Source of the DNA: Eubacteriaceae bacterium
GTDB lineage: Bacteria; Bacillota; Clostridia; Eubacteriales; Anaerofustaceae
Length of the DNA: 46,434 nucleotides
Assembly (NCBI GenBank): GCA_009782515.1
Contig: WRIY01000018.1
Span: 1 to 46,434 of the forward strand
Direction of reading: 5' to 3'
Of the stretch, positions 14,105-46,319 are shown piece by piece. Below the pieces are notes generated by a model that had not been told where the DNA came from, ran no database searches, and worked only from the letters and a program-made list of their open reading frames with translations. A program made the translations under genes and the position numbers. Each line of letters starts with the position of its first letter. Positions within the stretch are counted from its first letter, which is position 1.

Positions 14105-14974
14105 CTAGCTAAGCTTGATTAATGAAAGGCTCGCCTGGTAAACCATAAGCTTCATGCTGTTTCTATAGCTGATAACAGACATTTGAATCATATCTCCTGT
14201 ATTCAGCTGCTCGATAAAGGACATTGAATTGTCTATTAATTCTGCGCTGCCTTCTGTATAATGGCTGCTGCGATCAACAGGCTTGCCATTTATATTCACT
14301 GAAAACCTGACTGCATTCTTGGCTGAGGCCTTGTATGCTATCCTTCTGGAAATGCTGTATATGCCTGGCAGCTGTATTGTCATTGAATCGTTCGGGCAAT
14401 ACAATACATTCATCGATGGGGAGCCATGGGGCAGCCTTATTTGAGTGGTGAAAGTTACAGATGAATTATAAAGGGCGCTTTCGTTTGCATACCTTTCAGC
14501 ATACGCGCTGAGAGGCTGTGTATATGAAAAAGGGGCAAATGCGCCGATATTGGGGTTAAAGGCATATATAATTGCATTGCATATGTAAAACTCCCCAATC
14601 CTGCCTGTATTAGGCAGATCCGCAACGCTCTCAAGCGTGCCGCAATACTGATCAATCTTAATGGGGATTGTTTCCTGCGATATGCATATATCCCTTACAA
14701 GGTCGTTAAAATCAGCTGAGTGCTGAGCCGCGTCATACTTGTTGCTTGGCCATTCCGGCCCAAACCTAAAATAAGTCCTATCGTCCAATACTCCACCGCC
14801 TCCCACACGTTTCAATATATGCAAGCTGTCCAAGCAATATGCAGGCTCGTTCCCTGCTGATAGCTTATGATTGAAAACTTTCGTATATTTGTGATTTCTT
14901 CGCAAGTTAAGCGTTCTAATAAAACAGCATGCAGGCAATCGTTGCCCCAACGGGGAACAAACAGTGCGAATCAC
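14105..14974 (-). CDS. Unknown protein with BclA/C1q-like C-terminal domain
   Basis: A 289-aa product at most; the true start is uncertain because no clear ribosome site precedes the first codons. The C-terminal 120 residues look like the jelly-roll of BclA, C1q or TNF type: TIQLPGIYSISRRIAYKAS, then VRFSVNINGKPVDRSSHY, then SFIEQLNTGDMIQMSVISY. This pattern is typical of spore exosporium and surface glycoprotein tips. The N-terminal half has a glycine run (VGGGGVLDD) and an unassigned segment (residues about 70-160), and no collagen repeats. No signal peptide is seen. In a spore former, a spore-surface or phage-tail-tip-like role is possible; I cannot separate these. It is divergent from recF. 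Confidence 0.5.
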   Translation of the reverse strand: MIRTVCSPLGQRLPACCFIRTLNLRRNHKYTKVFNHKLSAGNEPAYCLDSLHILKRVGGGGVLDDRTYFRFGPEWPSNKYDAAQHSADFNDLVRDICISQETIPIKIDQYCGTLESVADLPNTGRIGEFYICNAIIYAFNPNIGAFAPFSYTQPLSAYAERYANESALYNSSVTFTTQIRLPHGSPSMNVLYCPNDSMTIQLPGIYSISRRIAYKASAKNAVRFSVNINGKPVDRSSHYTEGSAELIDNSMSFIEQLNTGDMIQMSVISYRNSMKLMVYQASLSLIKLS

Positions 14975-15242
14975 TTAAAACATGCTCTTTAGGCGTTGCT
15001 TTAAGACGCAAAATACTGTTAAAAAGCGCAAAAAAATGATATAATGGCATATGTGGCATTCATCAAGCATTACTGTTGATTACTCTGTTTCCAAACGCAA
15101 AAATATTGCTTAAAAGCCTTTGTAAGTTGCAAGGATGTTTTTTATATCTTTTTGCTTTTGCATATGCCTGCACGTGGCAGGCAGCAAAGAAAAATTTAAT
15201 AAAAAGCTTGCAGAATGCCTTTATCGGGGCCGGGTGGCGAAA

Positions 15243-16334
15243 ATGCACATTATAAAGCTAAGCCTTTCAAATTTTCGTAACATACAGTCTGCGAGCCTAT
15301 CATTCTCAAAAGGCATAAATGCCCTTTACGGCCGCAATGGCCAGGGCAAGACGAATACCCTTGAAGCCATAATGCTGGCGCTGCAAGGGAAAAGCCATAG
15401 AGAGCGAAAGGCCCTGGCTTTTATTGGCCCGTACAGCGACAGCTTGTCTATTGAGGCCGAAGTTGCCTCTGACAGCGCTCAAGCCTATACAGCAGGCCTG
15501 TATATCTCAGCTGAAAAGCGGGTGCACAGAGTTGACGGTCATACCGTCAAGAAAAGATCTGAAATCGCCCCGCTGTTCCCTGCTATCTTCTTCAGCCCGG
15601 CTGATCTCGAGCTTGTCAGGGGGCCTGCCGCCTCCAGGAGAGCATACCTTGACGAATCGATATCGGTAATGAGCAAGAATTATGCTGCTGCGCTGGCTGA
15701 GCATAGGAGGCTGCTCTCACAGAAGTCGTCTATACTGCGCCAGTACAACAGGTCTTTGGATTCTATGCTTGATATTTACGATGAAAAGCTTGCTGAGTGC
15801 GGGGCGATAATAATAAAATCCAGAATTCGCTTTCTCAGGGCGCTCAAGCCGGAGCTTGAGAGGCAGTACCATTACCTCTCCGGAGGGAGGGAAAAGCTTG
15901 ATATTGACTACTATGACAAAGCGGTTATTGAGATAGGCTCAGCCAGCCTCCAGGAATCCTACCTCGGGATGCTTGAGAGGGCAAGAAAAGTTGACATACG
16001 CTACCGCGAATGCACTGAAGGCATACACAGGGATGACATTGTCTTTACTCTGGACAAGATGCAAGCCCAAAACTTTGCCAGCCTCGGCCAGCAAAAGAGC
16101 TTGGCGCTATGCATGAAGCTCTCGCTGATTAATATATACAAAAACGCCCTTGGGGAAAAGCCTGTTGCCCTGCTTGACGATGTGCTCAGCGAGCTGGACA
16201 GCGACAGGAGAAAGCTGGCGCTTACTATAATTGCCGGATCTCAGGCGGTTATTACCTGTACAGACGAAAGCTTCCTTGAGAGCAGAAGAGACGTTAATAA
16301 ATTCATTGTTTCAGAAGGAATAATAAAAAATTGA
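15243..16334 (+). CDS. recF: DNA replication and repair protein RecF
   Basis: A 363-aa SMC-like ATPase that helps load RecA at single-strand gaps through the RecFOR pathway. Walker A is GRNGQGKTN near residue 30. The ABC signature region is SLGQQKSLALCMKLS and Walker B is PVALLDDVLSELDSDRR. Length matches the family. The ATG at 15243 gives the usual start MHIIKLSLSNFRNIQ, with GGTGG 5 nt upstream; a longer in-frame extension to 15135 has no family support. gyrB follows after 12 bp, the standard recF-gyrB-gyrA order near bacterial origins. The usual upstream dnaA, dnaN and S4-domain gene are replaced by about 270 bp of non-coding DNA and a divergent unrelated gene. Confidence 0.96.
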   Translation: MHIIKLSLSNFRNIQSASLSFSKGINALYGRNGQGKTNTLEAIMLALQGKSHRERKALAFIGPYSDSLSIEAEVASDSAQAYTAGLYISAEKRVHRVDGHTVKKRSEIAPLFPAIFFSPADLELVRGPAASRRAYLDESISVMSKNYAAALAEHRRLLSQKSSILRQYNRSLDSMLDIYDEKLAECGAIIIKSRIRFLRALKPELERQYHYLSGGREKLDIDYYDKAVIEIGSASLQESYLGMLERARKVDIRYRECTEGIHRDDIVFTLDKMQAQNFASLGQQKSLALCMKLSLINIYKNALGEKPVALLDDVLSELDSDRRKLALTIIAGSQAVITCTDESFLESRRDVNKFIVSEGIIKN

Positions 16335-18266
<1,932 letters not shown>

Positions 18267-18290
18267 CATACATGGGAAAGGCATATAGCA

Positions 18291-20747
18291 ATGAGCGAGT
18301 ATGGCAGTGATATTGAAATAATAGACATAGCTGAGGAAATGGAGCGAAGCTTCATCGACTATGCTATGAGCGTAATTGTCGGCAGGGCCCTGCCGGACGT
18401 AAGGGACGGGCTCAAGCCTGTGCACAGGCGCATTTTATACAGCATGGACGAGCTTGGCGTGCGCTATAACGCTTCGTACAGAAAAAGCGCGCGCATCATC
18501 GGCGATGTTATGGGCAAGTACCATCCTCACGGCGATGCGGCTATTTATGAATCGATGGCAAGGCTCTCCCAGGAGTTCTCAACCCGCTACATGCTGGTTG
18601 ACGGCCAGGGAAACTTCGGCTCAGTAGACGGCGATCAGCCGGCAGCCATGCGCTACACTGAAGCCAGGCTTTCGCGCCTTGCTTCTGAGATGCTTCGCGA
18701 CATAGACAAAGACACTGTTGAATTTGTTTCAAACTTTGATGACAGCGAGCAGGAGCCTGCTGTACTGCCCAGCCGCTTTCCGAACCTGCTGGTGAATGGC
18801 TCCAGCGGAATTGCTGTTGGAATGGCAACAAGCATTCCGCCCCATAATATGCGCGAAACAGTCGATGCTGCAATACTGCTGCTCAAAAAGCCTGAGGCAA
18901 ACCTCTCAGAGCTTATGGCGCATATAAAAGGGCCTGACTTTCCTACAGGCGGCATCATCATGGGCAGAAACGGCATCATCGACGCTTATAAAACAGGTAG
19001 GGGCAGGGTGGTTGTAAGGGCAAAGACAGAAATCGAAGCTTTAGGCTCAAACCGCCACAGAATAGTTATCACCGAAATCCCCTACATGGTTAATAAGGCA
19101 CGGCTTGTAGAAAAGATAGCCGATCTCGTCAGAGACAAGAAAATCACCGGCATTTCGGATATAAACGACTTTTCAGACCGCAATGGCATGAAAATTGCCA
19201 TCGACCTCAAGCGCGATGCCAACCAGCAGCTTGTCTTGAACCAGCTGTTCAAGTATACCCCTCTTCAGGACACCTTTTCCATAAACATGCTGGCGCTTGT
19301 TGACGGAATGCCTAAAGTTATCAGCCTTAAGGAAGCCTTGGAAAGCTACTTAAGCTTCCAAAAGGAGATAATCGCCAAGAGGACAAAATATGATCTTGAC
19401 AGGGCTCTGGCACGATCCCATATACTTGAAGGCTACATTATTGCCCTTGACAATATCGATGAAGTAATAGCTGTTATCAGGGCGTCTTATGACGATGCTG
19501 AAGAGCGCTTAATGGAAGCGTTCAGCCTCTCAAATGAGCAGGCAAAAGCAATTGTCGATATGCGCCTTAGGAGGCTTCAGGGCCTTGAGCGCGAGAAGAT
19601 AGCCCAAGAGCATGCAGAGCTTGCAGAAAAGATCGCTTATTACAACAGGCTTCTTGATTCTGAAGCAATGGTGGTTGAAGTTCTGGAAAGCGAGCTGCTT
19701 GAAATTAAAAACAGGTATGGCGACGAGCGGCGGACTTCATTTGAGGCAAACGAAGACGATGCCAACTTCGCAATCGAGGATCTTATTACCGAAGAGGATG
19801 TAGTCGTCACTATAACCCACCGGGGCTATATAAAGAGAGTTTCATCCTCGGCATATAAAGCGCAAAGAAGGGGCGGCAAAGGCATAATGGCGCATACAAC
19901 GCTTGAAAATGATTTTGTGCGCCATATCTTCTTTACCACAACGCTGAGCCAGATTCTGTTCTTTTCAAACAAGGGCAGGGCATACAAGATGCTTGCATAT
20001 TACCTGCCGGATGCCCAAAGGCAGGCTAAAGGGCAGGCAATTGTCAATATTCTGTCTTTGTCGCCAGGAGAGAAGATAACAGCGGTTATACCATTTAAAG
20101 GCACAGGCGAAGACAGCTTCCTGTTCATGGCTACCAGAAACGGCATTATTAAGAGAAGCAAGCTGTCGCTGTACAATACCAACAGGAGCCTTGGCTTTCA
20201 GGCAATAACCCTTAATGAAGGCGATGAGCTAATAGATGTTTTAGTTACTGACGGCAAGAGCAATATTCTGCTCGGGACGAGAAATGGCTCTGCTCTCTTA
20301 ATAGACGAAAACCAGGCCAGGCCTACCGGAAGGTCTGCCAGGGGCGTAAGGGGCGTAAAGCTGCTTGACGATGACTATGTTGTTGGCATTGGCTCTTCTT
20401 CAGAAGGCGGATTTGCCCTTACTGCAACCGAAAACGGCCTCGGAAGGCTATCAAGCCTTGACCGCTATCGTTTGACGGGGCGGGGAGGCAAAGGCGTTAT
20501 AAATTATAAGCCTACAGCCAGAACAGGCGCAATATGCGGCATCTGCGTTCTGGATCCCGAAAAGGACGATATTATGATACTTGCCGAAGACGGAAAAGCC
20601 CTTCGCATGGAAGCTTCCCAGCTAAGGAAGCTGAATCGGACTTCAAGCGGCGTCAGGGTGATAAAGCTTGCTGAAAACGTTAGAATATCAGCAATAGCAA
20701 AGGTCCTGAGCGAAGCATCAGAAGATGAAGATGACGGCGAAGAGTGA
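18291..20747 (+). CDS. gyrA: DNA gyrase subunit A
   Basis: An 818-aa breakage-reunion subunit. The catalytic Tyr lies in [10 protein letters not shown] (about residue 122). The C-terminal DNA-wrapping domain carries the GyrA box QRRGGKG near residue 530, and the tail is strongly acidic ([11 protein letters not shown]). The quinolone-resistance-determining region reads [11 protein letters not shown]. The position equal to E. coli Ser83 is Ala here, and residue 87 is Glu. Ala at this position is also found naturally in mycobacteria, where it goes with lower fluoroquinolone susceptibility. It is immediately downstream of gyrB. The 3' end overlaps the following GIY-YIG gene. Confidence 0.98.
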
Positions 20748-21139: not shown

Positions 21140-22861
21140 TTGTGTTTTTATCTGGAGGCTTTGCATGAAAAGAATTTGCCGATTAGCACTGAGGACTTCC
21201 CAACAGTCATAAATGGCGGCTACTACTTCGTTGACAAATCGATGTTCATCGCTGAGGCATTGAGCAATATGTCTGAGTCAAAGCTCATACTGCGCCCGAG
21301 GCGCTTTGGAAAGAGCCTGAACATAAGCATGCTAAAAGCTTTTTTAGAGATAGGCTCCCCAAAGGAGCTTTTTGAGGGGTTAGCAATTTCAGTTCATAAA
21401 GATTTGTGCGAAGCGCACCAGGCTCAGCACCCTGTTATTTTCCTGTCGCTTAAGGACATAGACGCAAGCGATTTTCCAGAAGCGCTTGATGCTCTTTCAT
21501 TAATCATAAGCGAAGAAGCGGACAGGCTGGAAATTGGGTTTGGAAATGAGCTTAAGGATGCCGAAAATGCATCATTTCATAGAATGTCTGAGATGAAAGC
21601 CAACAGAAATGATGTCAAAAGAAGCATTCGGCTTATATCAAAAGCGCTGCACCGGCGCCATGGAAAGAAAGCAATTGTCCTTATAGACGAATATGACGCG
21701 CCTATAAACCAAGCCTATCAAAAGGGCTATTATGATGAAATGGCCATCCTGTTTAGAGGCCTGCTTGGGCAAGCATTAAAGGGCAACCCATTCGTAGAGT
21801 TTGCAGTGCTTACCGGAATACTGAGGGTGTCAAAAGAGAGCATTTTTTCTGGCCTAAATAATATTGCTGTATATTCTGCCCTTGACGATGAGTTCAGCAG
21901 CCATTTTGGCTTTACTGGCGAAGAGGTGGCCGCTATGGTTGGCTACTACGGCCTTGAAGGCCGCATGGCTGACATGAAAGAGTATTATAACGGCTATAAG
22001 ATAGGCAGCTTTGAAATGTATAACCCTTGGTCTGTTGTCAGGGCCTGCAGCCGTATGGTTAGGAACGAGAGCGCGGCGCCTGAAATGTACTGGGCAAACA
22101 CTGCTTCGAATGATTTAGTTCGCGATATGCTGGGCCGTGACGGCTTTGGCGCGCTGGCCTTAATTGAAGATCTAGCCAATGGGGGCACAATTAACAAGAG
22201 GGTATCAATACTGTCAACATACAGAGATTTGGCTGATATCCCCGGCAGCGAAGCAGTATGGGATATGATGTTCATGGCAGGCTACCTTACTTGGGTGGGC
22301 AAAGCAAACAATGGCATGTATGAACTGAGGGCCCCCAACCTCGAAATAAGGGAAGCTTTAAGAAAAGACGCTCTTTCGTGGGCAATGTCAGCTATGCCAA
22401 TAACAGAGGGAAAGGCAGATGAGCTGTTTTCTGCTTTGCTTGCTGAAAACGCACGAGAGGCGGAAGCTGCAATAAACGATCTATTCGAAAATGTGCTAAG
22501 CGTAAGGGACGGCGTTGCCGTGCATGGCAGCTTCAAGGCAAGCCAGGAAAGGCACTGCCACTTGATAGTAGCTGCTCTGCTCTCCTGCAGCAGCTGGAGC
22601 GTAAAGAGCGAAGCAGAATCAGGCGATGGGTATATTGATTTGCTGTGCACAAACGTGGTTGCCAATGCAGCAATCGTTATTGAAGAGAAGTTTTCAGCTA
22701 CGGACGATGACGAGCAGCTTGCTGTTAAGGCGCAGGAAGCTATTGGGCAAATAGCCAAGAAAAAGTATGCAAAGAGCATTGAAGGCTTTGATACAGTTAT
22801 TGCTGTTGGGATTGCTTATGCAAGCAGGAGATGCAGGATTGCAATAAACACGCTCAAGTAG
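21140..22861 (+). CDS. AAA-ATPase-like / PD-(D/E)XK protein, copy 2 (normal start out of frame)
   Basis: A paralogue of the protein at 7960, about 565 aa. The P-loop is RPRRFGKSLN, Walker B is IVLIDEYDAPINQ, and the nuclease-like core is GDGYIDLLC then AAIVIEEKFS, so catalytic residues look intact. The leader matches copy 1 (ATCTGGAGGC..TGCATGAAAA), but the A-run after the ATG is one base shorter. The conserved Shine-Dalgarno and ATG (21165) therefore read out of frame. The in-frame alternatives are TTG codons at 21140 and 21161; the latter lies only 2 nt after GGAGG. Either the gene is a very recent start-frameshift pseudogene, it is translated poorly from TTG, or the homopolymer length is a sequence error. 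From residue 10 onward the protein is complete. Confidence 0.8.
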   Translation: MCFYLEALHEKNLPISTEDFPTVINGGYYFVDKSMFIAEALSNMSESKLILRPRRFGKSLNISMLKAFLEIGSPKELFEGLAISVHKDLCEAHQAQHPVIFLSLKDIDASDFPEALDALSLIISEEADRLEIGFGNELKDAENASFHRMSEMKANRNDVKRSIRLISKALHRRHGKKAIVLIDEYDAPINQAYQKGYYDEMAILFRGLLGQALKGNPFVEFAVLTGILRVSKESIFSGLNNIAVYSALDDEFSSHFGFTGEEVAAMVGYYGLEGRMADMKEYYNGYKIGSFEMYNPWSVVRACSRMVRNESAAPEMYWANTASNDLVRDMLGRDGFGALALIEDLANGGTINKRVSILSTYRDLADIPGSEAVWDMMFMAGYLTWVGKANNGMYELRAPNLEIREALRKDALSWAMSAMPITEGKADELFSALLAENAREAEAAINDLFENVLSVRDGVAVHGSFKASQERHCHLIVAALLSCSSWSVKSEAESGDGYIDLLCTNVVANAAIVIEEKFSATDDDEQLAVKAQEAIGQIAKKKYAKSIEGFDTVIAVGIAYASRRCRIAINTLK

Positions 22862-23165: not shown

Positions 23166-24203
23166 TTATTCAGTATAGCCGTACACTTTTCTGCCGTATA
23201 TATCGCTCTCGTCCCAAATGATCTTTTTGACTTCATCTATTACAGGATCGCCAAGATAGCTTATCGGCCATGCGAACATGCCCCAGCCGCCATTCGGGCT
23301 ATACTTGTCTATGGTGTCGCGCACATCCTGGCGAAGATCCTCTTCGCTAAAGTTTGGATATCCGGCAGGGACATGCCTGCCATAGTCAAACCCTCCGATG
23401 AACGAAACCCTGCCTTTGAACTGCTCTTTGAGCCCGATAATATCATTTGACTCTTGCGTAGGCTCGATGTATTTGACGCCGAAGTCGAGCATTTCAGGCA
23501 CAAACGGCTCTATCATGCCGCAGATGTGAAAGAGTACAGGCAAGCCTCTGTTAACTGCTGCCTGTGCCATTCGTGTGTAAATTGGCTTGAAAAACTCCCT
23601 ATACATCTCTACAGAGAAGAATGGCGCGTATTCTGTGCATGTGTCATCTCCGATGCACCAAATGTCAGGCTGGTAGTAGTCAAGTATTTTTTCGTAGTAA
23701 GGCTCTGTAACAGAGATCATGAATTCCTGCAGCTCTTTAACTGCTTCCGGCTCTTCGCTCATTGCTATCAGGCCTTCGCCATGCCCCAAAAATGCCATAA
23801 GCTGCTGGAATGGCTGGTAGACAGTGCCGCATGAGAGCGCAGTTTGGGAGCGGTCAATGTTTATGCGCTCTATATCCGCTTTAGCCATTGCCTCCCAATC
23901 GATGTTTTCCGTTATATTGGGCCTTTTGACTGTTTCGTGCCATTTCGTTATGTCATTGACCAGGAACTCACCCGGCTCGGGCAGGGATGCATTGGCAGTT
24001 TCCTCTGTAGCCACATATGTAACGCCCCACATGTCCTTGCTGCCGCCACTGAAACGGCTGTCACCCCAAATAGCAGGCCCTGCGCGCTTTATAGGGATCT
24101 CCCTTACGCCTTCGCTGCCCATCATTGTGAAGAATGGCACATACTCCGGGTGCCCTCCGCCTGCGAGCTTTAAAAAGTTATCTTTCGCTGATATCTTAGC
24201 CAT
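23166..24203 (-). CDS. URO-D/MtaA-superfamily protein 1
   Basis: A 345-aa TIM-barrel protein of the uroporphyrinogen decarboxylase superfamily. It resembles corrinoid-linked methyltransferases (MtaA, CmuA-like) more than true HemE. Landmarks are ILDYYQPDIWCIGDDTCTEYAPFFS and the metal-site-like block LPVLFHICGMIEPF, followed by YIEPTQ, SFIGGFDYG and GGWGMFAWP. MtaA-type enzymes bind zinc through His-x-Cys plus a distant Cys; here HIC is present, but the distant Cys near GGWGMF is missing. The HemE N-terminal Arg motif is not evident. GGAGGAAT sits upstream of the ATG at 24201-24203. Probable role is methyl transfer with a corrinoid protein, substrate unknown. No corrinoid gene is adjacent, although hgcA lies 12 kb away and a second member of the family is at 42979. 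Confidence 0.8.
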   Translation of the reverse strand: MAKISAKDNFLKLAGGGHPEYVPFFTMMGSEGVREIPIKRAGPAIWGDSRFSGGSKDMWGVTYVATEETANASLPEPGEFLVNDITKWHETVKRPNITENIDWEAMAKADIERINIDRSQTALSCGTVYQPFQQLMAFLGHGEGLIAMSEEPEAVKELQEFMISVTEPYYEKILDYYQPDIWCIGDDTCTEYAPFFSVEMYREFFKPIYTRMAQAAVNRGLPVLFHICGMIEPFVPEMLDFGVKYIEPTQESNDIIGLKEQFKGRVSFIGGFDYGRHVPAGYPNFSEEDLRQDVRDTIDKYSPNGGWGMFAWPISYLGDPVIDEVKKIIWDESDIYGRKVYGYTE

Positions 24204-26545: not shown

Positions 26546-27946
26546 TTATTCGCTTAGGATCCTATTTGCAAATTCGCGAACTTCAGCGCTGTTTACTTCC
26601 CAGTATGAAACGCCGTCAATATCAACGAAGCTTCCGGGTATCGTTGATGCATTGATGTTTGAAAAATCAAATCGCGAAACCGAAATCCCAAGTGCCGCCA
26701 TTGTCTGAAAATCCATGTCCGTGTAAAGCATGCTTGCTGCCTGTGAGATTAGCTTGGGCAGCTTGAGCACGTTCTGCGGGCTGGCAGCAGCTTTTAGCAG
26801 GTCTTTTAGCAGCCTTTGCTGCACATCGATTCTTGCAATGTCGCCTTTGGCATAGCCGCGGTAGCGGGCATAGCGCAGAAATGACAGGCCGTCAAGCAGC
26901 TGGCCATCCCCCTTGCTTATCGCAAGCTTGTTGCTAACATAGATATCGGTATGCACATCGGTTTTTACTCCGCCGATCATATTTACGATCTTAATAACGC
27001 CAGTCATGTCTACGCCGGCTATATAGTTTATGTTAACCCCGAGCAAGCTTTTTACGTTCTTCAAAAGCTCTTGCGCGCCGCCTTGCTCCTTGTCTTCATC
27101 AGTTGCACGGCCGATGCCTCCCCAATAAAAGCTGGCATTGATTTTGTCCATTTTGTCAAGCTGGCCAGCCATCAGCATTCGGGTGTCTCTTGGCACTGAA
27201 ATTATATCGATTGATTCATTGCTAAGATTAATTGAAGCTATAAATATGGTGTCCGGCCTGAATACATCGTACTCTAATCGCCTTGGGTTGTCCCGGTCAA
27301 GGCCATAAACAAGGATGTTTATCCGGCTTGCATTGGCAAAGAGCAGATCAGGGTTATATTCTTCGTAAAGATACTGCTTAGCTAAGAGCTTGGTTTCTTT
27401 CCTGTTATTTATAATAAGGCTGTCAAGGCTATTATTGCTCAGCAGCGCGCCCATAACCGCCATAAACCCTGTAGCAGATACAGCGATCAGGCAAATCGCA
27501 ATAATAGCAAACCGCCCAATTGCTCTAAGCGGCGCCTTTGCTTTCCTGGCTTGCGAGGCTGTTGCTGTTTTTTTCAGAGCTTTGCCCGGCGATTCTATGG
27601 CTTCCGGCTCTGCTATTGGCCCTTGGGCTTCAACACTGCCTCTTTGCAGCGTTATGCGCCGTTTTATGCGCCTTTGCTGTGGCCTATAGCCTATTGGCTG
27701 AGCAAGCGAATGCGATGTATCGCTTTGCTTTGGCCTTGCCAGCGCTTCACGCTTCGTCTTGGCTTTCTGCCTGTTTATTGATCTGCGAGCAGCGCGCTCG
27801 CCTAACTCCCACTTGTCATCCCATCGAGAGCCGGCTTTGCTGTTTGCAAGATTCGCCTCTTTTCTCCGAATGGGAATTGGTCCTTGTCCCGCCAAAATTT
27901 CGTTTCCCTTGCATTTTGATATTCGATAGGCTGATATCGATCGCAC
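26546..27946 (-). CDS. LytR-CpsA-Psr (LCP) family cell-wall glycopolymer ligase
   Basis: Up to 466 aa: a long, basic, disordered cytoplasmic N-terminus, one membrane helix (about residues 145-167, FAIIAICLIAVSATGFMAV) and the extracellular LCP domain. LCP motifs are RINILVYGLDRD, RPDTIFIASINLSN, DIISVPRDTRM, INASFYWGG and LDGLSFLRYARYRGYAKGDIARIDVQQRLL. The conserved Arg and Asp residues for pyrophosphate binding are present. LCP enzymes transfer lipid-linked polymers such as teichoic acids onto peptidoglycan. The GTG at 27946 lies almost at the predicted transcription start (TATAAT at 27955-27960), so the TTG at 27895, with AAGGGA 9 nt upstream, is a reasonable alternative. It pairs with the GT2-GtrA gene downstream. 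Confidence 0.92.
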   Translation of the reverse strand: MRSISAYRISKCKGNEILAGQGPIPIRRKEANLANSKAGSRWDDKWELGERAARRSINRQKAKTKREALARPKQSDTSHSLAQPIGYRPQQRRIKRRITLQRGSVEAQGPIAEPEAIESPGKALKKTATASQARKAKAPLRAIGRFAIIAICLIAVSATGFMAVMGALLSNNSLDSLIINNRKETKLLAKQYLYEEYNPDLLFANASRINILVYGLDRDNPRRLEYDVFRPDTIFIASINLSNESIDIISVPRDTRMLMAGQLDKMDKINASFYWGGIGRATDEDKEQGGAQELLKNVKSLLGVNINYIAGVDMTGVIKIVNMIGGVKTDVHTDIYVSNKLAISKGDGQLLDGLSFLRYARYRGYAKGDIARIDVQQRLLKDLLKAAASPQNVLKLPKLISQAASMLYTDMDFQTMAALGISVSRFDFSNINASTIPGSFVDIDGVSYWEVNSAEVREFANRILSE

Positions 27947-32900: not shown

Positions 32901-33473
32901 ATGGAGCAGGTTCTACCACTGAGCGATGAGCAATTAGTCGCAAAAAGCAAAAGCAGCCAAGGCAATGGGGCGATCGATGAGCTTTACATGCGCTATGAAA
33001 AGCGCCTGGCAAGCTATTCTGCATGGATGGCCAAGGAAATGGCAATTGAAGATGTTAAGCAGGAGTGCGCAATAGCATTCCTTAGCGCGGTTAAGAGCTA
33101 TGACGAATCGTATGGCGTGCCATTCCGCCCGTTTGCCATGACTGTAATTAAAAGAAAAATCATCAGCTATAAACAGCGCCAGCGCAAGATTTGGCCAACC
33201 AGGCAGCTGGCGGCGCTGGAGGATGCAGGGGACTACACAAGCAATGGCTATGCTGAAGCAGATGAGCGGCAGTTCATAGAATGGATATGGGGCCTTATTT
33301 CAAAGTCATTGACCGGGCGCGAAAGGGAAGCGCTGACAATGCATGCGAGCGGGATGCGCGCAAAAGAGATTGCAGCAGCAATGCAGACCAGCGAAAAGGC
33401 TGTATACAGGGCTATTGACCGCGGCAGAGGCAAAGTGCGCTCTATGAAAAAACACCTGATCACAAGCACATAG
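32901..33473 (+). CDS. Sigma-70-family RNA polymerase sigma factor, SigH-like
   Basis: A 190-aa sigma factor with region 2 (AIEDVKQECAIAFLSAVKSYDESYGVPFRPFAMTVIKRKI holds the DxxQE-type core and region 2.4, here cited by the motifs DVKQECAIAF and PFAMTVIKRKIISY). Region 4 has SLTGREREALTMHASG then AKEIAAAMQTSEKAVYRAIDR as the helix-turn-helix. Length and layout resemble sigma-H (Spo0H), which starts sporulation in Bacillus, but an ECF-like or other alternative factor is possible. GAGGAAAA lies before the ATG. No anti-sigma gene is adjacent. In a genome with spoIIR, a sporulation or stationary-phase role is reasonable but inferred. Confidence 0.82.
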   Translation: MEQVLPLSDEQLVAKSKSSQGNGAIDELYMRYEKRLASYSAWMAKEMAIEDVKQECAIAFLSAVKSYDESYGVPFRPFAMTVIKRKIISYKQRQRKIWPTRQLAALEDAGDYTSNGYAEADERQFIEWIWGLISKSLTGREREALTMHASGMRAKEIAAAMQTSEKAVYRAIDRGRGKVRSMKKHLITST

Positions 33474-34267: not shown

Positions 34268-35968
34268 CTACTTCATCTGCCTTATAAGCATCTTGCACTT
34301 CCTGCTTGCATATGCTATGCCTACTGCAAAAACTGTGCTGTAGCACTCAATGCTCTTTGCATACCTTGTGCCAATTATTTGCTCCATAGCCTCCCCGGCC
34401 TTTGCTGCAAGGCTTGAGCTATCGCCTGCAGCCGAGAATTTCTCTTCAATAACGATTGCCGCATTTATTTCTTCGTTTGTGCACAGCGTGTCCAGATAAC
34501 CGTCGCCGGACTCAGATTCACTATGAACATCCCAGTTGCTGCAGGCAAGGAGGACAGTCGTAATAAGGTGGTAGTGCCTTTCCTGGGTTATCTCAAAACT
34601 GCCGTGGACAACAACGCCATCCCTTACGCTTAGCACTTTCTCAAACAGGCTGTTTATTACACCCTCTGCCGCTTCAGCATCGCCAGCGAGCAATGCCGCA
34701 TACAGTTGATCAGCCTTTCCCTCGTCGATTGGCAAAGCTAAAATTGCCCACGAAAGCGCGTCTTTTCGGAGAGCGCTCCTAACCTCAAGGTTGGGAACCC
34801 TCAGCTCGTACATTTCATTGCCTGTTTTCTTAGCCCATGTAAGATAGCCTGCCATGAACATCATGTCCCAAACTGCCTCGCTGCCGGGCATTTCAATTAT
34901 GTCTCTGTATGTTGCCATAATTGATACCCTCTTTTTGACTGTGCCCCCTGCGGCAAGCTCCTCAATAGAAGACAGCGCTTTCAAGCCATCGCGTTTTAGC
35001 ATGTCTCGCACTAAGCTGCTTGATGCAGTGTTGGCCCAAAACTTTTCAGGCGCAGCGCTCTTGTTCTTGATCATCCGGCTGCACTGCATGACAACTGGCC
35101 ATGGGTTGTACACTTCGATCTCGCCCATTCTGTAGCCGCCATAGTACTCTTTCATGTCAGGCAAGCGCTCTTCAAGGCTGTAGTAGCTGAGCATGGCGGC
35201 CACTTCCTCTTCAGTAAAGCCAAAGTGGCTGCTAAAGCCCTCTTCAAGGGCTGAATATACAGCAATGTTGTTAAGATCTGAAAATATGCTGTCTTTTGGC
35301 AGCCGAAGCACCCCGCTTAGCACAGCAAGATCAACAAACGGGTTGCTCTTTAGCCCCTGCCCCAGTATGCCTCTGAAAAGAGTAGCCATCTCACCATAAT
35401 AATTCATTTCATATGCCAGGTTTATCGGAGCGTCATATTCGTCTATAAGAACAACAGCCTTCTTCCCATAGCGCCTATACAGCGCTTTTGACATAAGCAG
35501 AATAGCATCCGCAATGTCATTTTCATTTGCCTGCTTTTCATAGATTCTGCGCAATACTGCGTTTTCATAAGCATTAAGCTCTGTATTTTCAATCCCGATA
35601 TCAAGCCTATCTGCTTCAGCGCTTATCCGGCGGCCAATTGCATCAAGCGCTATGGGAAATGTTTGCGCACTCGTATCCTTAAGCGACAAAAAAATAATTG
35701 GATGCTTTCCCTGATGCTCTTCGCACAATCCCTTTTGTTTTGCTATTGCAAGCCCTTCAAACAGTTACTTTGGAGAGCCTATTTCCAAAAAAGACTTAAG
35801 CATGCTCATGTTTAGGCTCTTTCCAAACCTTCTTGGCCGCAGAATAAGCTTCATTTCGCTCATATTTTCCAAAGCCTCTGAAATGAGCATTGATTTGTCG
35901 ACAAAGTAGTAATCACCGTTTATGACAGTTTGGAAGTTGTCAGTGCTAATTGGAAGTTTCTTCTTCAT
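34268..35968 (-). pseudogene. AAA-ATPase-like / PD-(D/E)XK protein, copy 3 (in-frame stop)
   Basis: Third paralogue. The ATG at 35966-35968 has AGAGG upstream and reads MKKKLPISTDNFQTV, then RPRRFGKSLN (P-loop). It then hits TAA at 35765-35767 just after GSPK. Reading continues in the same frame without any shift: LFEGLAIAKQKGLCEEHQG, Walker B VVLIDEYDAPIN, and the nuclease-like GDGYLDTLC and AAIVIEEKFS, to the stop at 34268. In copies 1 and 2 the stop position is Gly and Glu codons. A single nonsense change therefore splits a gene that is otherwise complete. It begins about 110 bp downstream of hgcB on the same strand, so read-through from the hgcAB operon is possible. It is recent decay, or a read-through case if stop suppression exists. 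Confidence 0.88.
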
Positions 35969-36081
35969 ATAAACCTCTAGCTTTACATAAAAGCGAGCGC
36001 ATAGGCCTTTTGGCAAACACTCTGCGCAGAGATATGAGCGTGGGCGGCGCGAGCATGCAACAAATCATGTTTATATGGCTA

Positions 36082-36378
36082 TCAACAGCATTTTTTGCCA
36101 TCCTCGCTGCAATCACAGCTCGGCTCACTTCCGCTTAGCCAGCCTGAGATAAGCGCAGAGGCGCAACCAACCCCTGATTCTACCGATATTGCGCCTGTGG
36201 GGCAGTTCTTCGCGCAGGCTCCGCACTCCATGCAAAGGTTTATATCATTTATCCATGGTTTCTTGCCATTTGATGCAAACACTCCATGCGGGCATACTTG
36301 CACACATCTGCCGCATCCGTTGCATTTGTTGGAAGCCAATGCCAGCGTTGATACATCATCCAAATATATTAAGCTCAT
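36082..36378 (-). CDS. hgcB: HgcB, ferredoxin-like mercury methylation protein
   Basis: A 98-aa protein with two 4Fe-4S motifs: KCNGCGRCVQVCPHG (Cys19, 22, 25, 29) and LCMECGACAKNCPTG (Cys49, 52, 55, 59). They are followed by GVGCASALI (Cys72) and a C-terminal Cys pair (Cys97-Cys98). HgcB is thought to pass electrons to the HgcA corrinoid, and its lone Cys and terminal CC are thought to bind Hg(II) for transfer. All of these diagnostic positions are present, and length equals characterised HgcB (about 95 aa). An ordinary ferredoxin would lack Cys72 and the CC end. The ATG overlaps the hgcA stop (ATGA), with GGGGAG 6 nt upstream. Extra Cys88 and Cys90 add to the metal-binding tail. Last gene of the operon. 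Confidence 0.93.
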   Translation of the reverse strand: MSLIYLDDVSTLALASNKCNGCGRCVQVCPHGVFASNGKKPWINDINLCMECGACAKNCPTGAISVESGVGCASALISGWLSGSEPSCDCSEDGKKCC

Positions 36379-37454
36379 TTCTTCTCCCCTTTTCCAAAAA
36401 GGTGGGCAGCTGCCATCAAAACCCCGCCTATTGCAGCTGCACCGCTGATCAGCGGCATTGCATATTTCAGCTCTTTCTTAACACCAGAGGGCGATGTGTA
36501 TGTGGAGCTGCCTGTAAAGTTTAGCGCCAGATAAGAAGATATAGCCGGGAAAAGCAGCAATTCGCCTGCTGCAAGCATGCGATCCTGCAGCTCAAAACCC
36601 TTTGAAAGCTGCAGTGAGCCTGCTGTCCAGCACAGCCCTGCAAGCCACCCTTTTAATGAAAAGGCCTTGCCAGGTATATAGGGCAGCAATAGCGGAGTGG
36701 CTACCGAACCGGCAATGACAGCACCTGCAAAGGCGGCGAGATCCTTTTTGCCAAGAGGCTTCCTGGCAAATTGGTTGCTAAGAAAAACCACGCCTAAAAT
36801 AGGCAGAGACATTTTTATAGCAGGCACCAATTCCATAGGGACTAAAACAAGCCTGTCTTTAAACGTGAAGCTTACAAGCCGCATTTCCTCTGTTGCCTCA
36901 TTCCCGGACGAAATAAACTCCTTTATATCGCTGGCCCGTACCGGGCCATATTCAACATGAAATCCAGTGCGCTGAGGGATATCCTGGGCGCCTACGCCTG
37001 AAGCGGCTAGCTGTGGCAGGATTATTAGCCTGTGTGACACGATTTCCGAAAGGCCGGCTGCCTGAATGCGGCTAACCAGCTCCTCTGTGCCAAAAGTGCC
37101 TTTCCCTGCAGCGCACCATACATTGATGCCGTCAGTATCGAGAATCAAAACCCAGCAATCAAGCCCGGAGAGTTCCTGTCGCAGTGCATCGAAAGTCAGC
37201 TTATAGTTAGCGCTAACAAGCACAGGCGAAGCTTCATCCGGTTCGCCGACGGCATATAGCCCCGGGCTAACTTTATAGTTCATCCGCCCAATGCCCCATC
37301 GCACTTTCCATGCCCCCAGCTTGTCTTTGGCACTAAGCCGCGTTGCAATTACAGGAACACTCCCTATTGGTGTGGCAAGCTCGCCTATTTGCCAGCTCTC
37401 TGTAATCTCGCTTGATTTTGCCATCTGCCTGCCAGAGTGGGATTGCCCATTCAT
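36375..37454 (-). CDS. hgcA: HgcA, corrinoid protein for mercury methylation
   Basis: A 359-aa membrane corrinoid protein. HgcA receives a methyl group on its cobalt and hands it to Hg(II). The defining cap-helix motif GINVWCAAGKGTFGTEEL lies near residues 110-126, and its Cys (about 114) coordinates cobalt from below. Related CFeSP proteins have Thr there. The corrinoid domain covers roughly residues 30-190. About five membrane helices follow (215-355), with the family-typical NFTGSSTYTSPSGVKKE segment near the last loop. The ATG at 37452-37454 overlaps the arsR stop (ATGA) and has AGGGG 8 nt upstream; an in-frame GTG three codons earlier is less likely. Length slightly exceeds the Pseudodesulfovibrio protein (338 aa). 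Methyl source, probably methyl-THF, is not encoded here. Confidence 0.94.
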   Translation of the reverse strand: MNGQSHSGRQMAKSSEITESWQIGELATPIGSVPVIATRLSAKDKLGAWKVRWGIGRMNYKVSPGLYAVGEPDEASPVLVSANYKLTFDALRQELSGLDCWVLILDTDGINVWCAAGKGTFGTEELVSRIQAAGLSEIVSHRLIILPQLAASGVGAQDIPQRTGFHVEYGPVRASDIKEFISSGNEATEEMRLVSFTFKDRLVLVPMELVPAIKMSLPILGVVFLSNQFARKPLGKKDLAAFAGAVIAGSVATPLLLPYIPGKAFSLKGWLAGLCWTAGSLQLSKGFELQDRMLAAGELLLFPAISSYLALNFTGSSTYTSPSGVKKELKYAMPLISGAAAIGGVLMAAAHLFGKGEKK

Positions 37455-37768
37455 GCATAGCACCCCTTTTTCATATCGTTATTTTCAGTTGGGGAAGATG
37501 TCAACTGCCTTAACAATTCAACGGCATTCCTACTGCCGCTTTCGCTGATGGAGTAATGCGTCCACTTTCCCTCTTTGCGCGATGCAACAATCCCGCTTTC
37601 ACAGAGTATCTTCATGTGATGGGAGAGGGTTGGCTGTGATATCTGCAGCTGTCCAAGCAGAATGCAGGCGCATTTCTCGCCGCTCTGCAGCAGCTCAAGA
37701 ATTTTCAGCCGGTTTGCATCGCACAGGGCTTTGAAAACCGCTGCATTTTTTGTATATACACTGCTCAA
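37451..37768 (-). CDS. ArsR/SmtB-family metal-responsive repressor
   Basis: A 105-aa winged-helix repressor. Motifs are AVFKALCDANRLKILELLQSG, then the CAC pair in GEKCACILLGQLQISQPTLSHH (metal-site helix and DNA helix), then GIVASRKEGKWTHYSI. ArsR proteins leave DNA on binding As(III), Sb(III) or other thiophilic metals; here the Cys pair reads C-A-C. The TTG at 37766-37768 is chosen because GAGGTG sits 6 nt upstream, and the longer frame (37831) runs into the promoter. The stop overlaps the hgcA start, so it is the first gene of the operon. An ArsR-like regulator is reported to control hgcAB in Pseudodesulfovibrio mercurii, which supports the same role here. Confidence 0.9.
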   Translation of the reverse strand: MSSVYTKNAAVFKALCDANRLKILELLQSGEKCACILLGQLQISQPTLSHHMKILCESGIVASRKEGKWTHYSISESGSRNAVELLRQLTSSPTENNDMKKGCYA

Positions 37769-38124
37769 GCAATTCACCTCATATAGAAATATATCAATGT
37801 TAATTATGCCCTTCATATTGACTTCTGTCAATACATTAATTATATGAAGCCGTCAGCTTTTCTCAGCCTGACTATTGATATGCTGCCAGCCATCGCAAGC
37901 AGCATTGCTATGCCACAATAATTGTTTATTTGACAATATAAAAATCATTCAGCTATAATTCAGCTATAAAGCCGCGAATAATTCTATTGGCAAGATTATT
38001 GCCAGCAATTATTTCAAGCAACTACAATTCGCCCGCAAGCATTTAAGCAGCAGGCGCTAAGCGTCCAAGCCTTTGGCATGCGGGCACATCAGCAATGATT
38101 TTTTAAACAATAAAAGGAGCCTAT
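37769..38124. other. Intergenic region upstream of arsR-hgcAB
   Basis: Contains the arsR promoter and operator close to 37769-37834 (listed separately). The rest, up to the start of the next pseudogene at 38125, is AT-rich. I see no further gene or RNA. A plus-strand start for the neighbouring pseudogene is helped by AAAGGAGCC just before 38125. Confidence 0.5.
37804..37834 (-). promoter_or_regulatory. Promoter and ArsR-type operator of arsR-hgcAB
   Basis: On the minus strand, TTGACA (37827-37832), exactly 17 bp, then CATAAT (37804-37809). The -35 box lies inside the palindrome TATTGAC-TTCT-GTCAATA (37817-37834, 7-bp arms), the form of an ArsR/SmtB operator. Bound repressor would block the -35 region. 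The leader to the TTG start is about 30 nt. Seen: boxes and palindrome. Inferred: the binding protein is the product of the first gene. Confidence 0.78.
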
Positions 38125-42978: not shown

Positions 42979-43959
42979 ATGCTAACACCAAGGCAAAACT
43001 TTATGCAGGTGCATAAGGGCGGGAATCCTGACAGATTTGTCAAGCAGTTTGAGTTTTTTGCGATTGTCCCGGACCCGGGCATGTTCGGGGCAAGGCCTGA
43101 GCCGGGAGGCGAGGCTGTTGATGCCTGGGGAGTGACAAGCCGCTGGCCTGAAGGGGTTATTACGCCCTTCCCTGTGCATGATGATGAGCATAAGGTTGTG
43201 AAAGACATAAAAAGATGGAGGGAGTATATAAAAGCGCCCAGCCTCGATTATACAGAGGAAGCTTGGGAAGAGCCAATGAGAATTGCCAGCAGCATTGACA
43301 GAAATGAGCTCTTTGTAGGCACCATTATCTTCCCGGGATTTTTTGAGCATCTGCACTACATGATGGGAATGAATGACGCCCTTATGAATCTGGTGCTTGA
43401 GCCGGAAGAGACTCACGCTATCATTGACAACTACCTTCAATACCTTCTTAAACGAAGCGATATAATATCTGCGCATACAAAACCGGATATGCTTATGCTC
43501 AGCGATGACTTGGGCACATCCCGCAATTCCTTCATATCGCCTGAAATGTTCAGGGAGTTCTTCCTGCCTGCGTACAAAAAGCTCTTCGCCCGCTGGCGCG
43601 ACAATGGAGCTGAGCTTATATACATGCACAATGACAGCTACAGCGCAAACCTTGTGCCTTTGTTTATTGAAGCAGGCATAGATGTTTGGCAGGGGGCCAC
43701 TACGCTTTGCGATGTGGCGCATCTTGTCAAAGAATATGGCGGCCAGATAACTATCATGGGCGACATTGACAGCGGGGTTGTTGATCAGCCAAATTGGACC
43801 AGGGAGCTTGTCGAAGCTGAAGTCAGGCGCGCGTGCAGCTCAAACGGAAAGCTTTACTTTGTGCCTAGCATGACCATGGCTGCCCCGCCGACACTTTACC
43901 CTGGAGTTGACAGCTGCATAGATGAATGCATTGACATGATGTCTAAAGAAATGTTTTAG
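42979..43959 (+). CDS. URO-D/MtaA-superfamily protein 2
   Basis: A 326-aa member of the uroporphyrinogen decarboxylase superfamily, distantly related to the protein at 23166. Landmarks are DMLMLSDDLGTSRNSFISPEMF, then GAELIYMHNDSYSANLVP at the place of the metal-binding His-x-Cys, and TIMGDIDSGVVDQPNW. The site here reads MHND, so the zinc Cys is replaced by Asp. That argues against standard MtaA-type thiol methylation, and the HemE Arg signature is absent too. Ligands His and Asp could still hold a metal. It has its own promoter and terminator and no operon partner. Function unknown; a methyltransferase or a decarboxylase-fold lyase is possible. Confidence 0.8.
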   Translation: MLTPRQNFMQVHKGGNPDRFVKQFEFFAIVPDPGMFGARPEPGGEAVDAWGVTSRWPEGVITPFPVHDDEHKVVKDIKRWREYIKAPSLDYTEEAWEEPMRIASSIDRNELFVGTIIFPGFFEHLHYMMGMNDALMNLVLEPEETHAIIDNYLQYLLKRSDIISAHTKPDMLMLSDDLGTSRNSFISPEMFREFFLPAYKKLFARWRDNGAELIYMHNDSYSANLVPLFIEAGIDVWQGATTLCDVAHLVKEYGGQITIMGDIDSGVVDQPNWTRELVEAEVRRACSSNGKLYFVPSMTMAAPPTLYPGVDSCIDECIDMMSKEMF

Positions 43960-44671: not shown

Positions 44672-46319
44672 CTGTTGAGTCGTAAGTTTTTCTTCCCAAA
44701 ATACAGACTATGCAATGTCGTATAGCCTGTAAAGATCGAATTCTTCAGGTTTCATCCGAAGCCCTTTGAGTTTTGAGAATGTCCCAAATAGCTCACTGTC
44801 GGGCGACAATCCCAATAATGCTCTAAACCCTGCTGCCACAGATTCCACAGACGGAGCGCTCCCATGCGCTGTGCGCACGAAGCGCATTGCCGGCACGGTG
44901 CCAGCCTGTGCATATTTCATTGAAACCATCTGAAGCGTCCCCAAAGCGATGCACGCTATTGCTGCAAACCTTTCGGCTGCTTCAACTGCCCTAAGGATCT
45001 TTTCCTGATCTTTCGGATCTTTAACTGCCTCGAGCGGGCTGAGGGCACCCTTCTTTGCATATCTGTCAAGCTTAGGCATTGCTTTTGTCCAGAACTGCGC
45101 CCCAAAGCAATTAAGTGTTTGCTTAAGCGCTTTGAATGCCGACTCGATGGAAAACCTTCGGCTGTAGAGCTCGAGCGCTGTTTCAGCAGGCATTTCAGTG
45201 TCAGTGCACCCCAGCACTATCTGCCCGCTGCCTGTTATTGCGAACACAAACAGCAGCTCTTCATTCAGGCCCTTGCCCCATAAAAGCTTTTTAGAGTGTA
45301 TCAGCACCGTCTCCTCTTTGCCGTACAGCACCGCTTTTGCCGCTATAAAGCTTGCTTTATCTGACTCGAACACGCTTGAAAGCTTAACGCTTTCGCCTGT
45401 CTTGCGCGGCCTGCCGGGCTTTCTTTTTTCGCCTGGCTGAAGCTCAGCCGGCCTCTCATAGCCGACATAGCTTGGCTTTGCCCGCATGATGAGATCCGTG
45501 CCATATTCCTTTGCCATCTTCACTGCCCCAACAGACATGAAATATGCGTCAAGCACACCTACAGCCCCTCCGGAGATTTCCTGCGCCGCTTCGCACAGCG
45601 CTCTTACAGACTGAACCACATGGCTGTCTGTTCGCTCTTCGCGCCCAATCCAGCCAAACGCTTCGGCAAGGCCGTTTTGGATTGTTAGGGAAAGCGGGAT
45701 GCAGTATGAGAGAGCGCCAGCCTCAGCCAAAATGCCAAGGCCGCCCCACAAATGCCCATAAATAAATGAAGGCTCAGACGAGTTCTCGGACTGCTGGCTG
45801 TGCTTTTTCACCCCAGGCATATGGGATCCCTCATGGGCCTGCTTAACCCCGTCGCCTATGAGCACAGCCCTTCCATCCCCAAGCCTAAACAAAGGCGCCA
45901 GTTCTCGAACAGCCCTTGCCCAGTACAAAAGGAGGGTTTCAGCGCAGAAAGCTGTTGAGCGGAAAAAGTGCTCAATAGAGCAGTAGCAGCCAAACCTGAG
46001 GGACAGGGCCCGGACAATGCCGGCCATGCCGCCATTGCCAAGGCCGCACAAGAAAGCAATTGCTATGCAGGCGAACCATTTGAATGCCGCCTCCCTTGAG
46101 AAGGCTGGCCTAAGCTTGCTTAAAATTCTGTCTGCAAATTTCATGGCTGCATTTTCCGGCTGCTGTGTTGTGTGCTACAATTAATGAGCAATGGTTCCAG
46201 CTGCGCTATCCTTTTTTTGGAGTTAACAATAGGATAGCATGCATAATGCTGGAATTCATGCTATTAATGGCACATTGTGTCGATTCATAATCTTAGTCCG
46301 CGAACTCGCGACTCTTCAG
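44672..46319 (-). mobile_element. Complete IS4-type insertion sequence (1648 bp)
   Basis: Left end CTGTTGAGTCGTAAGTT and right end (read inward) CTGAAGAGTCGCGAGTT form imperfect inverted repeats. Both ends are flanked by ATTATA (44666-44671 and 46320-46325), a 6-bp target duplication. The uninterrupted target is visible in copy A of tnpB. One transposase gene fills the element. I place it in the IS4 superfamily from the transposase motif; the exact subgroup is unknown. Confidence 0.9.
44708..46144 (-). CDS. IS4-type DDE transposase
   Basis: A 478-aa DDE transposase that appears intact. The first Asp lies in VLIGDGVKQAHEG (about residue 97), followed by the MPGVKKHSQQSE motif. The second Asp is in GGAVGVLDAYFMS (about residue 200). 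The Glu is in the YREK signature YSRRFSIESAFKALKQ, with the exact IS4 spacing Y-2-R-3-E-6-K. A basic GEKRKPGRPRK segment sits in the inserted beta domain. The gene reads inward from ATG 46142-46144. No frameshift or stop was seen, and sharp ends and target repeats suggest recent transposition, so the element may still be mobile. Confidence 0.9.
   Translation of the reverse strand: MKFADRILSKLRPAFSREAAFKWFACIAIAFLCGLGNGGMAGIVRALSLRFGCYCSIEHFFRSTAFCAETLLLYWARAVRELAPLFRLGDGRAVLIGDGVKQAHEGSHMPGVKKHSQQSENSSEPSFIYGHLWGGLGILAEAGALSYCIPLSLTIQNGLAEAFGWIGREERTDSHVVQSVRALCEAAQEISGGAVGVLDAYFMSVGAVKMAKEYGTDLIMRAKPSYVGYERPAELQPGEKRKPGRPRKTGESVKLSSVFESDKASFIAAKAVLYGKEETVLIHSKKLLWGKGLNEELLFVFAITGSGQIVLGCTDTEMPAETALELYSRRFSIESAFKALKQTLNCFGAQFWTKAMPKLDRYAKKGALSPLEAVKDPKDQEKILRAVEAAERFAAIACIALGTLQMVSMKYAQAGTVPAMRFVRTAHGSAPSVESVAAGFRALLGLSPDSELFGTFSKLKGLRMKPEEFDLYRLYDIA

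Follow-up and report, generated by a model that had tools for sequence, protein, structure and literature searches.

The locus raises the question of how a microbe outside the sulfate reducers came to carry hgcAB, the gene pair that decides who can make methylmercury and whose spread is patchy and native role open, and how the pair is controlled there. The analyzed stretch, called the window here, is the whole of contig WRIY01000018.1 (46,434 nucleotides, nt; assembly GCA_009782515.1), which is contig 18 of a 2.67 Mb Eubacteriaceae genome that is 94.17% complete. An hgcAB pair had been claimed at 36082..37454 from the letters alone (the original prediction); that reading omitted a coupled arsR gene, its operators and the HgcA tree that crosses phyla and domains. 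We consider that arsR, hgcA and hgcB probably form a mercury-methylating operon which is repressed by ArsR, derepressed by a soft metal and was gained horizontally by the host lineage. Somewhat less firmly, we also hold it rather probable that cassette and operator are a self-contained metal-switched unit, passed from Firmicutes-type donors to Treponema and Methanomassiliicoccales in animal guts, above all those of termites. The pair alone is ordinary, because fermentative and acetogenic Firmicute methylators are already known; the new element is the family tree of HgcA. The features on which the argument is built are the following.

36082..36378, minus strand: hgcB, dicluster ferredoxin of 98 amino acids (NF040864, cysteine pattern and overlap read from the sequence)
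36375..37454, minus strand: hgcA, membrane corrinoid protein of 359 amino acids from the ATG behind AAAAAGGGG (NF040863)
37101..37124, minus strand: NVWCAAGK cap-helix motif of HgcA with the cobalt-ligand Cys (sequence)
36396..36863, minus strand: predicted five-helix membrane domain of HgcA, residues 201-356 in GTG numbering (AlphaFold2 model)
37451..37768, minus strand: arsR, ArsR/SmtB-family repressor with CxC (NF033788, starts of relatives and sequence)
37803..37831, minus strand: sigma-70-like promoter TTGACA-17-CATAAT, 11 of 12 matches
37815..37834, no strand: O1, operator-like palindrome over the -35 box, 13/14, inner TATTGAC-N4-GTCAATA perfect
37781..37800, no strand: O2, operator-like palindrome between the -10 box and the ribosome-binding site, 12/14

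The predicted pair was confirmed by profile search, as HgcA reaches 451.5 bits with NF040863 (cut-off 275; positions 1-323 of the 325 in the model are covered) and HgcB 127 bits with NF040864 (cut-off 99). The ATG was chosen from the sequence as the probable start of hgcA; an alternative GTG at 37463 would give 362 amino acids, and the cap-helix cysteine is Cys117 in GTG numbering and Cys114 in ATG numbering. The diagnostic parts named by the original prediction, which are the NVWCAAGK motif with a five-helix domain in HgcA and two 4Fe-4S motifs, an extra Cys72 and a terminal Cys pair in HgcB, were all recovered. Aligned with 24 close relatives, the motif is invariant at seven of its eight residues and nearly so at the lysine. 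The AlphaFold2 model (mean predicted local distance difference test, pLDDT, 71.5; below 50 in the cap-helix stretch 112-123) predicts C-terminal helices at 201-231, 239-258, 268-286, 292-320 and 325-356, four of which also pass a plain hydropathy scan. HgcB has its motif cysteines at 19/22/25/29 and 49/52/55/59, and tail cysteines at 88, 90, 97 and 98 besides Cys72. These residues of the two proteins correspond to HgcA Cys93, HgcB Cys73 and Cys94/95 of Pseudodesulfovibrio mercurii ND132, which are reported as crucial (PMC11588087, PMC7305189). By scores and residues together the proteins are identified as HgcA and HgcB with the full diagnostic set.

It is highly improbable that they are instead an HgcAB-like or CFeSP paralogue without methylation function. 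HgcA does match the HgcAB-like fusion model NF043039 (204.9 bits) and the CFeSP gamma model NF003195 (84.2 bits), but both scores are below their cut-offs (285 and 306) while the HgcA and HgcB models are passed, and the host genome has a separate AcsC; both candidates were rejected. Matches of CFeSP type to NF040863 in the searched genomes stay below cut-off at 27-71 bits, against which the 451.5 bits of the window place its protein within the HgcA clade. Among solved-structure chains the matches to the HgcA sequence at E <=0.01 are CFeSP large (gamma) subunits only (four distinct sequences; PDB 2h9a, 4c1n, 4djd, 9fzy), whose homologous corrinoid domain aligns at best with 46.1 bits over HgcA residues 64-185 and stops ahead of the five-helix domain.

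The gene that precedes hgcA encodes an ArsR of 86.5 bits against NF033788 (cut-off 55). It lies directly upstream, its stop overlapping the hgcA ATG (37454) by 4 nt in the letters ATGA, and the hgcA stop and hgcB start share a second ATGA at 36375-36378; from these two overlaps arsR-hgcA-hgcB is likely one translationally coupled three-gene operon (36082-37834). The mechanical open reading frame (ORF) of arsR begins at 37831, and TTG 37768 behind GAGGTG is preferred as its probable start because it is the better fit to the starts of relatives. Promoter-like sites in the arsR upstream region number four against a shuffle mean of 3.8, i.e. no excess. The palindrome TATTGAC-N4-GTCAATA with at most one mismatch occurs once in the window and in 0 of 100 shuffles, the pattern being derived from this same site, and a two-mismatch palindrome search of the window finds O1 and O2 only.

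The operator form ATATYGA-N6-TCRATAT was derived by comparing nine arsR-hgcA loci. A palindrome of at least 12/14 stands ahead of arsR in eight of these nine (the window with 13 and 12 at its two sites), a count which is in-sample because the form came from the same loci. The held-out loci L138, L021 and L032 score 14/14 at arsR. Across 842,605 positions of loci L004-L100 the form has 48 sites of at least 12, 12 of at least 13 and five perfect ones; all five (L005, L014, L019, L021, L032; three of them defining loci) precede an hgc-linked arsR and sit 58-107 nt before its conserved (V/I)FKA codons. At L004, where arsR stands behind hgcB, the arsR site scores 9/14 and a 13/14 site is found at 4235-4254, about 90 nt before hgcA. 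Judged by these counts, most hgc-linked arsR genes of this type, bacterial and archaeal, are marked by the palindrome. In other ArsR proteins a CxC pair in the helix before the recognition helix binds metal; such a pair, the putative metal ligand here, is present in 8/8 of the ArsR set including the window, and a C-terminal Cys in 7/8.

HgcA over the cut-off was found in 2/13 genomes of the window's family (the other carrier is G012), 5/67 of its order, 32/147 of the order of a Methanoplasma bin and 37/291 in the order of a Treponema bin (291 genomes sampled from a larger group). A near-relative search of named genomes with patterns from the window's HgcA gave 346 stretches, of which 324 were confirmed and the best 80 kept, and termite-gut bins are frequent at the top of this list of 80. 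According to PMC7024585, Lab288, Nt197, Emb289 and Th196 are prefixes for Labiotermes labralis, Neocapritermes taracua, Embiratermes neotenicus and Termes hospes; Nc350, Jx357, Aly426 and Cus372 resemble the termite set, and for these a termite origin could not be confirmed.

The clade of the window was supported at 90 in a quick tree of 93 rows and at 98 in a tree of 107 rows from which 41 distant rows had been dropped. The careful tree has 64 rows chosen from those 107; L059, whose gene is cut by a contig end, was left out of the trees, as were L003 (which was in the first tree), L084, L106, L107, L109 and L139 as duplicates. In the careful tree the window falls in an 11-row set (support 100/100) inside a 26-row clade (99/95), which spans seven named phyla and both domains and is composed as follows.

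Named bacterial rows: Bacillota L004, L005 and L007; Spirochaetota L016 and L024; Synergistota L008; Actinomycetota L019; Candidatus Cloacimonadota L010; Pseudomonadota L006
Named archaeal rows: Methanomassiliicoccaceae, Thermoplasmatota, L009, L011 and L014
Other rows: the window, G012 (L085), L108, Treponematales L136-L138 and eight database proteins, five of these labelled Oscillospiraceae or Defluviitaleaceae by a source

Confirmed termite prefixes are carried by six of the 12 named rows (L004, L006, L010, L016, L019, L024), and in five more (L007, L008, L009, L011, L014) the termite prefix is unconfirmed. Outside the clade, nine further Methanomassiliicoccales rows and eight further Treponematales rows each form a clade of their own in the careful tree (both 100/99); in the 107-row tree 26/30 Methanomassiliicoccales are in their own clade and 4/30 in that of the window, which also holds 5/33 spirochaetes. 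Approximately unbiased (AU) tests, on taxonomic groups that were named after the first trees were seen, rejected a single clade of all 13 archaeal rows (p 0.011), of 13 spirochaete rows (p 0.0001, L069 left out) and of the five rows of the window's order (p 4e-7).

These results bear on whether hgcAB could be ancestral in the order of the window and in the Firmicutes and passed on by descent, its patchiness coming from losses only. We regard this as very unlikely: a single clade of the window with G012 and the order's three further carriers is rejected, so descent within the order alone was discarded, so few genomes of that order carry HgcA, and archaea and spirochaetes are nested in the window's clade. 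It can claim for itself that the window and G012, which are of the same family, are not separable (AU p 0.08), and that other Bacillota rows adjoin the 26-row clade.

The neighbourhood of hgcA points in the same direction as the horizontal gain which we favour. An arsR of more than 45 bits lies directly upstream of hgcA in 9/18 clade loci against 4/122 other loci, many loci of this survey carrying only about 1.4 kb of flank. The remaining clade loci have arsR downstream (1), too little DNA (3) or no arsR (5), and the remaining other loci have arsR elsewhere within 3.5 kb (6), too little DNA (5) or none (107). The arsR-hgcA-hgcB set of bacterial type is also present in four Methanomassiliicoccales genomes. 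Their ArsRs (L108, L011, L009 and L014) share 68%, 68%, 69% and 56% identity with that of the window, against 58-60% for HgcA of the archaea, so ArsR is nearer than HgcA in three of the four. In the ArsR tree the window, the four archaea, L004, L007 and L019 are in one set (97/94).

A leader with a CC pair was found on HgcA in 15/17 clade loci, 8/11 other Firmicutes and 21/59 of the rest, with 0/26 in other Methanomassiliicoccales and 0/26 in other Treponematales. Its start codons were picked by rule, by which L004 is shortened and some leaders are maybe read too long; the window's own leader has one Cys from GTG and none from ATG. As a mark of the clade the leader was rejected, being shared by so many other Firmicutes, and its only use is to flag HgcA of Firmicutes type where this occurs in archaea and spirochaetes. 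From this distribution the archaeal and Treponema clade members carry HgcA of Firmicutes type.

A pattern that crosses phyla might also be a binning artefact, with firmicute hgcA contigs put into archaeal, Treponema and other bins of the same guts; we give this a slim chance, a shade below that of inheritance with losses. Several clade contigs are short (4-10 kb) and come from metagenome bins, and the check for host genes on the contig did not extend to L006, L009, L010, L011, L016, L019 and L024. The mnmG on the L008 contig is ambiguous as to the host of L008 (80% to one Synergistaceae bin, only 47% and a 75% fragment to another). Against an artefact, the hgcA contigs of the archaeal genomes G023 and G140 also bear a tyrosyl-tRNA synthetase whose counterparts in eight other Methanomassiliicoccales genomes are 63-82% identical (ten were searched, and G018 gave no full-length match), against only 23-35% for the bacterial matches. 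Three Treponematales hgcAs stand on contigs of 37,301, 62,887 and 207,950 bp, the archaeal clade rows from four separate genomes group together (100/100), and four of the five clade Treponematales rows do so too (100/98). The window contig itself bears the following genes.

15135..20747, plus strand: recF, gyrB and gyrA (TIGR00611 306.7, TIGR01059 991.3 and NF004043 1143.6 bits, all over cut-off)

These three genes tie the contig to the host chromosome. Among the best 120 relatives the closest GyrB is 80% identical, that of a metagenome-assembled genome (MAG) called Anaerofustis stercorihominis 75% and that of an Anaerofustis sp. 73%; Eubacteriaceae bacteria reach at most 72%, and a non-MAG Anaerofustis stercorihominis record 68%. 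By its GyrB relatives the host is placed as an Anaerofustis-like firmicute, and the firmicute host of the original prediction is supported by these and by the neighbouring genes. AcsD, AcsC and AcsE are over cut-off together on contig 4 of the host genome, formyl-tetrahydrofolate (THF) synthetase is over cut-off on the same contig, and AcsB is found on contig 5 (428.4 bits, cut-off 355.95); this gene set makes the host a putative acetogen, not simply a fermenter. The AcsB on contig 5 is one of two acsB-like matches there, G000:C5:34814-36037 and 14925-16100, which score 428.4 bits (over) and 214.1 bits (under). No dsrA over cut-off is present in the whole host genome (best 42.3 bits, cut-off 392.85), by which a sulfate-reducing host was rejected; for dsrA this agrees with the original prediction, which saw no sulfate-reduction genes in the window. 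Its further suggestion of a fermentative methylator outside the usual groups is only half right, as the Acs genes make the host a putative acetogen and such Firmicute methylators are already listed.

Several observations weigh against the ArsR-repressed, horizontally gained operon proposed here. Two or more palindromes at two mismatches also occur in 14/100 shuffles of the window, the defining locus L009 scores 9/14 at arsR, and the held-out locus L029 scores 10/14. Five of the 18 clade loci, G012 among them, have enough upstream DNA and no arsR; in the ArsR tree, which has long branches, those of L005, L016 and L138 are placed apart from the 8-row set. Within the HgcA clade, support for the closest neighbours of the window is poor (82/8), and the clade also contains L005 (Syntrophomonas sp. 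DTU018), which is no termite bin. The two plasmid and phage collections searched gave no match, and carriage by a plasmid or phage was rejected for these collections.

With these points weighed, the ArsR-controlled methylation operon is pictured as follows. By analogy with ND132, HgcB would reduce the cobalt bound to HgcA, S-adenosylmethionine (SAM) would methylate this cobalt and the methyl group would then pass to Hg(II); the cap-helix Cys of HgcA would ligate the cobalt, and the tail cysteines of HgcB would deliver Hg(II) or remove the methylated product. SAM, not methyl-THF, is the methyl donor of ND132 HgcAB (PMC11588087), and its HgcB tail cysteines are proposed to carry mercury (PMC11588087, PMC7305189). 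Because SAM is the donor there, the acetyl-CoA pathway of the host is taken as context and not as the presumed direct methyl source. From the anatomy of the promoter region, ArsR may sit without metal on O1 over the -35 box and on O2 before the ribosome-binding site and so keep the operon off; a thiophilic metal such as arsenite or mercury(II), bound at the CxC pair, would make ArsR leave and turn the operon on. The genes arsR, hgcA and hgcB with the operator would have been transferred as one block. The methylation activity, the ArsR ligand and the vehicle of transfer are what we infer here.

The same ArsR lets one ask whether the pair serves as an enzyme system for arsenic or another metal, with methylmercury as a side product, which we think unlikely but the least unlikely of the alternatives. 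It would suit the arsR upstream in the window and the hgcA neighbours of relatives: L007 has two acr3-type genes beside hgcA (381.9 bits, over, and 124.9 bits, under the cut-off of 282.8), and an arsC-like gene below cut-off is found at L004. The native role of hgcAB is also described as open (PMC10349881). On the other side, every residue reported necessary for mercury methylation in ND132 is retained, and the window's genome has no acr3 match, with which an acr3 partner for ArsR elsewhere in the genome was rejected. In the Labiotermes-gut bin of L004 the stretch 5840-7095 after hgcB holds arsR, the arsC-like gene and two small ORFs with metal-binding domains, and a metal-binding-domain gene there likewise scores below cut-off.

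Among known systems ND132 is alike in the domain plan of HgcA, the cap-helix Cys and the two-cluster HgcB with extra Cys and Cys tail. It also has an ArsR-family gene upstream, there reported as co-transcribed (PMC11588087, PMC7305189, PMC10349881, PMC7438021), and its hgcAB is under ArsR control responsive to arsenic, as cited in PMC10349881. It differs in that the window's HgcA is on another branch, in a termite-rich clade, and that the window's genes overlap by 4 nt. About 40 hgcAB-positive Firmicutes were reported with seven tested (PMC5893877), and known methylators include fermentative, syntrophic and acetogenic Firmicutes or other strains (PMC5893877, PMC10896945); these share the anaerobic firmicute host and canonical hgcAB, and the window differs by its Anaerofustis-like lineage, for which no paper linking hgcA to Anaerofustis was found in the open-licence literature. 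From permafrost, hgcAB regions common to five genomes of four phyla were described with a putative regulator upstream (PMC7438021), a cross-phylum similarity like that of the window's clade, which differs in having archaea among its recipients, an ArsR with a common palindrome as regulator, and named rows that come predominantly from termite-gut bins. For regulation, PMC10349881 proposes a PrlF-like gene in archaea and arsR in bacteria; its 31 confirmed methylators include a single archaeon with arsR, a Methanosphaerula, and the four Methanomassiliicoccales with arsR add to that exception. Surveys have already recorded hgcAB in termite guts, and methylmercury is known for one termite; Limper 2008, as cited in PMC7075563, reported its formation in termite guts. 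A paper on horizontal transfer of hgcA in Methanomassiliicoccales or Treponema was not found in the open-licence literature, nor was a shared gut hgcAB cassette among the titles and abstracts listed by broader searches.

Around the operon the neighbours named by the original prediction (spoIIR, ytaF, a sigma factor and LCP) hold by profile matches; spoIIR is over cut-off in Pfam (141.4 bits, cut-off 25) and below it for TIGR02837 (137.2, cut-off 151.9), and an Mntp-type pump (ytaF-like) is encoded in the window together with the following.

32901-33473: sigma-70-type factor
26546-27946: LCP protein

Behind hgcB, an AAA-ATPase_like/PDDEXK_9 gene is seemingly split into two frames (34268-35728 and 35765-36016, minus strand), and an intact relative of the family is at 21140-22861. 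The URO-D family includes corrinoid methyltransferases. Two of its proteins are encoded at 42979-43959 (plus) and 23166-24203 (minus), and in G012 the ORF L102:5271-6425 directly upstream of hgcA is URO-D-like by eye, with no NCBIfam match. An IS701-like transposase below cut-off (106.9/170 bits) is at 44708-46144 (minus), about 7 kb from arsR. Beside hgcA of the Methanoplasma bin, L009:2379-3020 (minus) encodes 214 amino acids resembling the C-terminal part of CFeSP gamma (131.1/306 bits), and further genomes from the order of that bin repeatedly show frames of 200-240 amino acids that match HgcA weakly.

Kindred gene sets in termite-gut bacteria and archaea make it likely that hgcAB sets spread sideways between very distant microbes. 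A cassette that would keep its regulator and operator as it passes between phyla and from bacteria into archaea points to metal control as a part of the trait, and the arsR-bearing archaeal sets qualify the proposal of different archaeal and bacterial control of hgcAB (PMC10349881). If this is true, methylmercury production would be a shared and exchangeable trait of the gut community, and termite guts would be a place where the gain of methylation through transfer can be tested.

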